Source: Ignavibacteriales bacterium
GTDB lineage: Bacteria; Bacteroidota; Ignavibacteria; Ignavibacteriales; SURF-24
Assembly: GCA_026390815.1 (NCBI GenBank)
Contig: JAPLFH010000013.1
Span: 1-60,177 of the forward strand
Reading direction: 5' to 3'
DNA: 60,177 nt
Part shown: piece after piece, positions 35,568 to 37,938 of the stretch
How the letters are laid out: each line of letters opens with the position of its first letter
Position numbering within the stretch: position 1 is the stretch's first letter
Position numbers and translations under genes: made by a program
The notes under the pieces: generated by a model
Told to the model about the DNA's origin: nothing
Databases searched by the model: none
What the model saw: only the letters and a program-made list of their open reading frames with translations

Positions 35568-36886
35568 AAAAGGTACTTGTACTCGGTGCTGGCTTGGTTA
35601 GCAAACCAGGTGTTCAGTATTTATTAAAACAAAAAGATATTGAAGTTACTGTGGCTTCCAGAACTGTTAGTAAAGCAGAAAAATTAATAAAAGGATTTCC
35701 AAACGGAAAAGCTGTTGAAGTAAATGTGGAAAACCAAGATGACTTAGCAAAGGTAGTTAAAGACTGTGACATAGCTATAAGTCTGTTACCATGGATTCAT
35801 CATTTAAAAGTTGCTGACTTTTGTATTGAATACGGTAAACATATGGTAACTACTTCCTATGTAAGCGAAGGAATGAAAAAGTTGGATGAACCGGCTAAAC
35901 AAAAAGGATTATTGTTCTTAAACGAACTTGGCGTTGATCCAGGAATTGATCATATGTCGGCAATGAAAATTATTGATGAAGTATATGCTGAAGGTGGAAA
36001 AGTGCTCCACTTCTATTCATATTGTGGTGGTTTGCCCGCACCGGAGAATAATGATAATCCATTTGGTTATAAATTTTCCTGGAGTCCAAGAGGTGTGGTT
36101 CTTGCTTCCCGCAACTCATCTAAGTTTTTGGAGAATGGTGAAATTGTTAATATCGAAGGGAAAAATTTATTTCTGAACTTTAAGGTTGAAGAGATTGAAG
36201 GACTTGGAAAATTTGAAGTTTATCCAAATAGAGATTCTACCCCATACAAAGAAATCTATGGTTTGAAAGATGCACTTACTGTTAAACGAGGTACTTACAG
36301 AAACATTGGATGGTGCGAAACATTTAAGAAGATTGTGGATTTAGATTTAGTAGATGAAACTCCACGCGAGGAATTAAAAGATGTAACCTTCAAACAAATG
36401 ATGGCTAAAATTGTTGGCTGTAAAGAAACAGATGATGTAAAAGCTAAGGTGGCAGAAAAAATTAATTTGCCTGTTGATCATCATGTTCTTGGCAGGCTGG
36501 AATGGCTTGGTTTATTCTCTGATGATAAAGTTTCTAAAATAAATAACAGGTTAGATATACTCAGTGATCGACTCCAGGAAAAACTTGTTTTTAAGGAAGG
36601 TGAGAAAGATTTGTTAATTCTGCGTCATCGTTTTATTGTTGAAAACAAAGATAAAACAAAAGATATGATCACTTCCACATTAATTGATTTCGGAATTCCT
36701 TTCGGTGATTCATCTATGGCAAGAACAGTTAGCTTGCCAATGGCTATTGGAACAAAGCTTCTTGCGGAAGGCAAAATTAAAGCAAGTGGAGTTCATATTC
36801 CTAATACTAAAGATCTGTACGAACCAATCCTGACTGAATTGGAAACATTGAACATTAAAATGGATGAAAAACGGTGGAGAATCTAA
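35564..36886 (+). CDS. Saccharopine dehydrogenase (glutamate-forming; AASS C-terminal half)
   Basis: An N-terminal Rossmann fold (VLVLGAGLVSKPGVQYL, then VTVASRTVSKAE) is followed by the family blocks LPWIHHLKVADFCIEYGKHMVTTSY, ELGVDPGIDHMSAMKIID, YCGGLPAPENNDNPFGYKFSWSP and a C-terminal VSLPMAIGTKLLAEGKI. This is the Lys9/AASS-C type, splitting saccharopine into glutamate and alpha-aminoadipic semialdehyde. An AAGGAGG site lies inside the end of the LKR gene. Confidence 0.9.
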   Translation: MKKVLVLGAGLVSKPGVQYLLKQKDIEVTVASRTVSKAEKLIKGFPNGKAVEVNVENQDDLAKVVKDCDIAISLLPWIHHLKVADFCIEYGKHMVTTSYVSEGMKKLDEPAKQKGLLFLNELGVDPGIDHMSAMKIIDEVYAEGGKVLHFYSYCGGLPAPENNDNPFGYKFSWSPRGVVLASRNSSKFLENGEIVNIEGKNLFLNFKVEEIEGLGKFEVYPNRDSTPYKEIYGLKDALTVKRGTYRNIGWCETFKKIVDLDLVDETPREELKDVTFKQMMAKIVGCKETDDVKAKVAEKINLPVDHHVLGRLEWLGLFSDDKVSKINNRLDILSDRLQEKLVFKEGEKDLLILRHRFIVENKDKTKDMITSTLIDFGIPFGDSSMARTVSLPMAIGTKLLAEGKIKASGVHIPNTKDLYEPILTELETLNIKMDEKRWRI

Positions 36887-36994
36887 CAATTTCGGATTGC
36901 TGATTTTTGATCATGGAATTTAAAAAGTATTGTAATTCATAATTCATTTTTTTTATATTTGAATTGTCTTTTTTCACAAATTAAACTACTTGCT

Positions 36995-37024
36995 TGATGC
37001 GGCTCCACAGTGGAGCCGTCATCA
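36995..37024. repeat. Hairpin repeat with perfect GGCTCCAC dyad
   Basis: CGGCTCCAC and GTGGAGCCG flank a single A (37000-37018). The dyad extends outward through TGATG/CATCA with a one-base bulge. There is no T run, so it is not a classic terminator. It lies 110 bp after the saccharopine dehydrogenase gene and looks like a small interspersed palindromic element, though it could stabilise the 3' end of that transcript. Confidence 0.6.
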
Positions 37025-37032
37025 TTTTAAAA

Positions 37033-37072
37033 CAGCCTACCCCTTAATCCCCTTCCTAAGGAAGGGGAAAGG
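37033..37072 (-). repeat. Interspersed palindromic repeat, copy 1
   Basis: A 40-bp unit whose core CCCCTTCCT-A-AGGAAGGGG is a perfect 9-bp hairpin. Read on the minus strand it matches copy 2 (37224-37263) at 29 of the last 36 positions. It is intergenic. Confidence 0.75.
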
Positions 37073-37188
37073 AAATCTCAATCAACAAATTTGGAAACAG
37101 AGATATTTTATTTTTTTATTCGTTGATATTAAAGAGTTTTTATAAGTTTAGGATATAAATTGTTTTTAATTCAATTTAAGAATTGCAT

Positions 37189-37938
37189 ATGTCAAGAAAC
37201 AAAGATTTAGAATTAGTTGGATCAAAGTCCCCCTCTTTGGGAGGGGGATTTAGGGGGAGGCTATTTATCGTCAGCACTCCGATTGGTAATTTAAAAGATA
37301 TAACACTCCGCGCGTTGGAAGTTCTACGAGATGTAGATTTTGTTATTTGCGAAGATACAAGAGTAACCGGAGTATTGCTTAACCATTATGAAATTAAAAA
37401 AGAATTGATCTCATTCAATGCTCACAGCGAATCTTCTAAAATAAATTTTGTGTTGGAACGAATAAGAAATGGAAAATCCTGCGCATTGGTTTCTGATGCT
37501 GGTACACCTGGGATCTCTGATCCAGGAGTACGATTGGTTAATGCTGCAATTAAGGAAGAAATACCGGTTGAACCAATTCCCGGAGTTTCTGCTGTTATTA
37601 CTGCTTTAAGCATTGCCGGACTTCCAACGGATTCATTCATCTTCGAAGGATTTATTCCCCAGAAAAAAGGAAGGCAGAAAATATTAAAGCAGCTTGCTGA
37701 GGAAGATAGAACAATTGTTTTGTACGAATCAACTTACAGGATTGAAAAGCTCCTGAATGAATTAAACGAATTTATGCCTGAGAGATTTGTTGTTGTTGCA
37801 CGAGAACTTACTAAAAAATTTGAAGAAGTCTGGCGGGGTGATGCAGCCCAATTGGTTGAAGAAGTAAAATCAAAAACAATAAAAGGCGAGTTTGTGGTTA
37901 TTATCGCTCCGAAAAATTGGAAAGAACAGATTGTTTAA
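37189..37938 (+). CDS. rsmI: 16S rRNA (cytidine-1402 2'-O)-methyltransferase RsmI, with a repeat-encoded N-terminal segment
   Basis: A SAM-dependent tetrapyrrole-methylase-fold enzyme that modifies C1402 of 16S rRNA with RsmH. The family blocks LFIVSTPIGNLKDITLRALEVL, CEDTRVTGVLLNHY, SDAGTPGISDPG, PIPGVSAVITALSIAGLPTDSFIFEGFIP and LYESTYRI are intact. Family members normally begin a few residues before LFIVSTPIGN. Here about 24 extra residues precede it, and roughly half (KSPSLGGGFRG) are encoded by an interspersed palindromic repeat in frame. I start at the ATG at 37189; it has no strong ribosome-binding site, and an in-frame TTG at 37237 inside the repeat is an alternative. Confidence 0.9.
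   Translation: MSRNKDLELVGSKSPSLGGGFRGRLFIVSTPIGNLKDITLRALEVLRDVDFVICEDTRVTGVLLNHYEIKKELISFNAHSESSKINFVLERIRNGKSCALVSDAGTPGISDPGVRLVNAAIKEEIPVEPIPGVSAVITALSIAGLPTDSFIFEGFIPQKKGRQKILKQLAEEDRTIVLYESTYRIEKLLNELNEFMPERFVVVARELTKKFEEVWRGDAAQLVEEVKSKTIKGEFVVIIAPKNWKEQIV
37224..37263 (+). repeat. Interspersed palindromic repeat, copy 2, inside rsmI
   Basis: A 40-bp unit homologous to copy 1 but in the opposite orientation. Core stem CCCCCTC/GAGGGGG with a 5-nt loop. It is translated in the rsmI frame. Differences from copy 1 at unit positions 10 and 20 exchange a T-A pair for C-G, preserving the hairpin. Confidence 0.78.

Follow-up and report, generated by a model that had tools for sequence, protein, structure and literature searches.

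Palindromic repeats that lie in frame are already known from Rickettsia and from REPs of the RAYT type (PMC3733652). The Rickettsia palindromic elements (RPEs) are dispersed palindromes that lie in frame within many unrelated genes, N-termini included, and the intragenic REPs of R. conorii correspond to RPE-4 and RPE-6 (PMC3733652). GTAG REPs are palindromes of 20-40 bp with an asymmetric tag. They form inverted dimers and are mostly intergenic near genes, with some intragenic copies in frame. The GTAG tetranucleotide is conserved in >90% of the members of most GTAG REP families (PMC3733652). MITEs are short, non-autonomous pairs of inverted repeats that lack an ORF and resemble the termini of a bigger element that does carry a gene. 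Finally, homing endonuclease genes of the EDxHD/Vsr-like type, such as that of I-Bth0305I, have one conserved site per host gene.

Here we describe an inverted pair of palindromes at the start of rsmI in an Ignavibacteriales bacterium. (The window is the 60,177-nucleotide stretch of contig JAPLFH010000013.1 that was analysed; its genome is G000, and G001 is from another genus of the same family.) The initial annotation had likened the pair to RPEs, and this holds as a working analogy: the palindrome is dispersed, sits in frame in the N-terminus of RsmI and in unrelated enzymes, and is missing from orthologues. However, RPEs come from a different clade, the likeness drawn is one of behaviour, and the unit here is ~37 bp. 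Also, the palindromes here bracket a gene for a DUF559 nuclease, of which the RPE text consulted makes no mention. The size, the asymmetric tag, the inverted dimers, and the mostly intergenic placement near genes, with some copies in frame, are as in GTAG REPs, but a conserved GTAG was not found at the foot of the stem in the 58 copies examined; GCCTAC (=GTAGGC) opens about 15 of these, ~9 nt from the stem. No RAYT flanked on both sides by an R1-type repeat (R1 is our model of this family, see below) was found among 29 Y1_Tnp stretches; the partner gene here appears to be DUF559. The bare pairs resemble MITEs, but with no known transposase and no established target-site duplication. The DUF559 domains have a fold like that of I-Bth0305I and likewise show one conserved site per host gene, with domains grouped by site. 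Unlike homing endonuclease genes, they have no surrounding intron or intein, so that the nuclease and the palindromes remain in the translated host protein, and related palindromes are dispersed across the genome.

The repeat pair at rsmI

The units lie at 37033-37072 and, in opposite orientation, at 37224-37263, and a direct count over the first 36 positions gives 29 matches, as originally annotated. Copy 1 is CAGCCTACCCCTTAATCCCCTTCCTAAGGAAGGGGAAAGG, and copy 2, as its reverse complement, is TAGCCTCCCCCTAAATCCCCCTCCCAAAGAGGGGGACTTT. In dinucleotide shuffles of the window, 0.01 and 0.00 matches of such quality are expected; two were seen. R1 places copy 1, which is intergenic, at 37035..37071 on the + strand (54.9 bits, E = 1.8e-13) and copy 2 at 37225..37261 on the - strand (50.2 bits, E = 5.2e-12). 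Copy 1 is made of the tag GCCTACCCCTTAA, a 9-bp stem and a 3-nt loop. Copy 1 has T-A at a stem pair where copy 2 has C-G, which is the compensatory change that had been pointed out. The copies are separated by an AT-rich spacer (37072..37224) that is homologous to the spacer in G001.

At the left edge of the insert is a conserved hairpin, ACTACTTGC-N5-CGGCTCC..GGAGCCG..TTTTAAA (36985..37031, + strand), which many relatives that lack the insert also keep 5' of rsmI. In the form ACTACTTGC-N5-[AG]CGGCTCC..GGAGCCG..TTTTAAA, this hairpin (36985-37031) lies just 5' of rsmI in many genera of the order. A search of 36850-37350 against Rfam, upstream hairpin included, gave sub-threshold matches only and none above the gathering score.

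Copy 2 sits in the reading frame of rsmI, where it encodes KSPSLGGGFRG, as had been claimed; read on the + strand it corresponds to KSPSLGGGFRGR of RsmI. The gene (16S rRNA methyltransferase I; PF00590; PDB:9pzg and 5hw4) is placed at 37189..37938 on the + strand, within an open frame of 37183-37938. The only in-frame starts 5' of LFIVSTPIGN are TTG at 37183, ATG at 37189, and TTG at 37237, and the last of these is within the repeat. Because every canonical start precedes the repeat or falls within it, the repeat must be translated at least in part (at least GGGFRGR). The start that was recruited is probably ATG 37189, in the spacer; from the sequence, it would yield KSPSLGGGFRGR. The repeat-encoded extension is MSRNKDLELVGSKSPSLGGGFRGR, and the TP_methylase domain begins at residue 27 of RsmI (protein P0001).

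We read the RsmI loci of 28 relatives from the order besides G000 and G001. (L031, with TPVGN, could not be read.) In 27/28 of these, a start codon falls 0-5 residues ahead of the conserved [LI][FY][IV].TPIGN strand. The extension is found only in G000 and G001 and is repeat-derived in both, so none of the relatives read encodes these residues in sequence other than the repeat. In DNA alignments, the insert of G000 and G001 falls between the upstream hairpin and the LFIVSTPIGN codons, and the sites in G002, G003, G046 and G056 are empty. G001 retains both copies. Its copy 1, at L010:1278, is GCCTACCCCTGTATCCCCTTCCAAAGGAAGGGGAAAA and is the orthologue of copy 1 in the window; its copy 2 is degenerate and has a net in-frame insertion of 21 bp, and the frame remains open. 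The event is therefore an old one that the two genera have in common, and its reading frame is still open. The suggestion that the unit was recently copied finds no support at rsmI: the pair is common to two genera, has diverged, and includes a copy with a 21-bp net insertion. With both filled and empty relatives, rsmI offers a clean case in which such a hairpin gave rise to a new protein N-terminus.

The palindrome family and the placement of its copies

R1 is a covariance model; among the 13 copies from which it was built, one flanks a DUF559 gene. In its alignment, five of the nine stem pairs are changed on both sides, in agreement with the hairpin and compensatory change annotated at rsmI, and 96.6% of cells are paired. 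The covariation score is 0.425, against 0.214 when shuffled, and related copies can inflate this score. Copies were counted by searching with the model, and gene borders came from a simple codon-usage caller, not from curated annotation. At E <= 0.01, R1 has 37 hits in G000, so the rsmI pair does not stand alone in its genome, and 49 hits in G001. With the threshold at E <= 0.1, copies are found in 44/59 genomes of the order, and none in G002, G003 or G004, which are three other members of the family. Strict patterns find just 3 copies in G000 (7 with a looser pattern) and any copy in 2/395 genomes of the phylum. On that basis the repeat had seemed rare, a view that was overturned once R1 was applied.

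Two minor features of the family are worth recording. A second palindrome, of the CCTGCCTGCCGGTAGGCAGG type, is nested in the R1 loop at G000:C33:205346 and G000:C7:209144 (L124 and L129). And seven copies in G000 have the same weak R1 score (C21:5075, C23:2542, C25:196, C33:175354, C41:88230, C41:2793 and C59:59865). These are probably another, more homogeneous subfamily of repeats; one of them reads CTACCCCAAATCCCCTTCTCTTTGAAAGAGAAGGGGACTA.

Of the copies examined in G000 and G001, 13/58 are internal to genes and in frame (rsmI is counted). The hosts include MetH, ArgH, HsdR, T9SS sorting domains, and others. The insert in ArgH is ~15 residues (AYPLTPSPKEGDF..) and is absent from the solved argininosuccinate lyases with which it was compared; the insert in MetH is likewise missing from solved homologues. 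Two more copies, one in each genus (G000 and G001), form the C-terminus of an iron-sulphur protein, SLPLNPLPKEGDF. In-frame copies are found repeatedly within or next to T9SS-type C-terminal sorting domains, or comparable loops in secreted proteins (G000 C43:15661, C7:135706 and C6:206356; G001 C11:47635 and C88:3243).

Among the non-internal copies, the tag (GCC) end is <=12 nt from a start codon in 17/44 and from a stop codon in 18/44 (35/44 together), and the hairpin end is this close to either in 2/45. The base that precedes the tag is A in 46/55 copies. This strong polarity of R1 copies in G000 and G001, with the tag end abutting start and stop codons, has insertion preference or selection as candidate causes. 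At a number of start codons, the tag has the form GGGAGTAGGC-N(1-4)-ATG and is a well-spaced Shine-Dalgarno-like sequence. The idea that the repeat supplies translation signals is therefore plausible at these other loci but fails at rsmI, where the tag cannot work in this way because no canonical start comes after the repeat (AGGGGGAGG).

DUF559 nucleases bracketed by palindromes

The connection with DUF559 nucleases cannot be seen in the window itself. We searched 59 genomes for DUF559 (PF04480) and examined the flanks of the best match of each of 30 genomes. R1 palindromes lie <=250 bp from DUF559 on the left in 25/30, on the right in 19/30, on both sides in 17/30, and on at least one side in 27/30, and they are mostly tag-outward, like the rsmI pair. 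Thus inverted, tag-outward palindromes lie beside DUF559, as in a mobile element, though not at every locus: several standalone DUF559s have no detectable palindrome on one side, and three have none on both. Over the 30 DUF559 loci there are 99 R1 hits; 29 Y1_Tnp stretches that add up to the same length have 8.

A test that does not use the model, in which the left flank is compared with the reverse complement of the right flank, found strong inverted repeats around DUF559 in 13/30 loci of the order, 14/24 of the phylum, and 4/9 plasmid loci (from Cyanobacteria, Alphaproteobacteria and Deinococcota). As a positive control, it found them around Y1_Tnp in 13/25, with their own, different palindromes; for rsmI loci it found 0/26. 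The ends of the Pseudanabaena DUF559 locus, GCCCCCTAAATCCCCC..GGGGGACTT, share 25/31 aligned positions with copy 2 of the window, and copy 1 shares 30/35 aligned positions with the left end of the element in MetH. Across the 59 genomes, 36 have both DUF559 (E < 1e-15) and R1, none has DUF559 only, 8 have R1 only, and 15 have neither (Fisher p = 1.2e-8; Spearman 0.86 for copy numbers), with p-values that are too small because the genomes are related and not phylogenetically independent. The eight genomes with R1 and without a full DUF559 have 1 to 11 R1 copies each.

Some DUF559 domains are inside other proteins. In the metH frame of G000, a whole domain lies in frame between two inverted palindromes, at residues about 498-660 (listed as residues 500-660 of G000:C30, L114), and the remainder of MetH aligns to the methionine synthase PDB:9ssp in two pieces. 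Another palindrome-bounded DUF559 is inside a type I restriction R subunit (G000:C16, L191). Both have the same site in other genera. Overall, in-frame, palindrome-bounded domains were found in MetH of 9 genomes, at one site; in HsdR of 4, among which one belongs to a different class of the phylum; in HsdM; and in LeuS, at two sites. The in-frame domains in LeuS, at two different sites, are L221, L223 and L240, from other Bacteroidota. Embedded domains group by host site (support of 100/97 for MetH and 100/98 for HsdR), and the HsdR clade crosses classes. This grouping fits homing or descent with the host gene alike.

In 29 DUF559 domains, T12, E15, W19, D44, E55, D57, G58 and H61 are invariant, and E15, D44, E55, D57 and H61 are the conserved catalytic residues. 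A structural model (pLDDT 78.3) is nearest to PDB:3hrl (Z 15.0), then I-Bth0305I (Z 11.8) and Vsr (Z 10.5). Both the predicted fold and the catalytic residues are those of a Vsr/EDxHD-type PD-(D/E)XK nuclease. YcjD is an E. coli protein of the DUF559 family. Earlier sequence work placed YcjD next to Vsr (PMC1189080), and a DUF559 protein from Caulobacter was named VsrA (PMC12907096). In the open-licence literature, we found no paper that connects DUF559 to palindromes, to repeats or to methionine synthase, although an earlier description is possible elsewhere, and what we found there assigns no enzyme to the C-rich palindromes of these genomes.

Proposed origin of the rsmI pair

The rsmI pair is probably made of inverted copies of a mobile hairpin family whose autonomous form brackets a DUF559 nuclease gene. 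No DUF559 remnant was found in the rsmI spacer, so the tie between this pair and the nuclease element rests on the similarity of the repeats. In the common ancestor of the two genera, the pair, with its tag ends outward, would have settled with the upstream hairpin on one side and the opening codons of rsmI on the other. The original start would have been displaced and a start in the spacer recruited, probably ATG 37189. The right-hand copy, which is open in the recruited frame, would then have become a tolerated N-terminal extension of RsmI. The autonomous element is most likely two palindromes that bracket a DUF559 (Vsr/EDxHD homing-type) gene, and bare pairs and single palindromes, including those at rsmI, would be non-autonomous relics that remained after the nuclease was lost. 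DUF559 may recognise the palindrome or the target and cut either the target or an extruded hairpin, and repair would copy the unit in. We infer that the palindromes are spread by the DUF559 nuclease.

The start of RsmI bears on this account. If RsmI starts at TTG 37237, or at a non-canonical codon after the repeat, and not at MSRNKDLELVGS, then the repeat would be mainly a leader, and only GGGFRGR, or nothing, would be translated. TTG 37237 is in frame, and most relatives start 0-5 residues before the conserved motif, but this TTG has no Shine-Dalgarno-like sequence in front of it, and an ATG can be used further upstream, at 37189. The frame in G001, moreover, is open through the degenerate copy and its net 21-bp insertion. 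We consider a late start unlikely. As for the palindromes themselves, copies within the coding frames of MetH, ArgH and HsdR, patchy presence between sister genera, and a flanked nuclease gene in distant phyla are all unexpected for a purely cis-regulatory element. This makes it very unlikely that they are regulatory hairpins (terminators, mRNA stabilisers or Shine-Dalgarno donors) selected at gene borders, with the rsmI copy being a read-through leader hairpin. Such a function would account for the polarity at gene borders (35/44 tag ends against 2/45 hairpin ends), for the T-rich sequence that comes after the GC-rich stem in the direction away from the tag, and for the GGGAG tag 1-4 nt from several ATGs; the palindromes may have a regulatory role once they have arrived.

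It is also possible that these are ordinary REPs that are spread by RAYT (a Y1 tyrosine transposase), with DUF559 genes as passengers or as places where REP insertion is tolerated on both sides. The tag-plus-hairpin anatomy and the dimers are like those of GTAG REPs (PMC3733652). Y1_Tnp genes are present in 55/59 genomes, with 6-8 in G000, and their count is correlated with the count of R1 (Spearman 0.50). One RAYT in G024 has an R1 copy ~540 bp off. But Y1 genes carry their own, different flanking palindromes (such as CCACG..CGTGG and AACCTT..AAGGTT), the 8 R1 hits in Y1 stretches compare with 99 at DUF559 loci, and no R1 copy is found in G002 or G004, whose Y1 genes number 8 and 4. Spread by RAYT is distinctly unlikely.

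Returning to DUF559, a broader proposal is one that we hold with about as much belief as doubt: that widespread REP-like palindromes are spread by the homing-type nuclease that they bracket, and not by a transposase; that the whole unit, with its nuclease, can reside unspliced and in frame in important enzymes (LeuS, MetH and HsdR); and that its miniature relics create new N-termini, as at rsmI, as well as C-termini, loops within reading frames, and perhaps ribosome-binding sites. Palindromic in-frame elements were already known, and the probable partner enzyme, DUF559, would be the new part. Such a partner would account for the entry of hairpin repeats into reading frames. DUF559, which is still named for its "unknown function," would gain a role, and a class of nuclease-driven mobile elements would be defined.

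RAYT/Y1 found no support as a candidate partner: in the 29 stretches examined, two places score >15 bits, and nowhere does R1 flank both sides. At G000:C33:61583 (L162), a Y1_Tnp gene is flanked by palindromes of the CCACGATGtttaCATCGTGG type, which are a separate REP-like set. Two further, near-identical copies of an IS200-like TnpA are at G000:C5:40983 and C40:71470.
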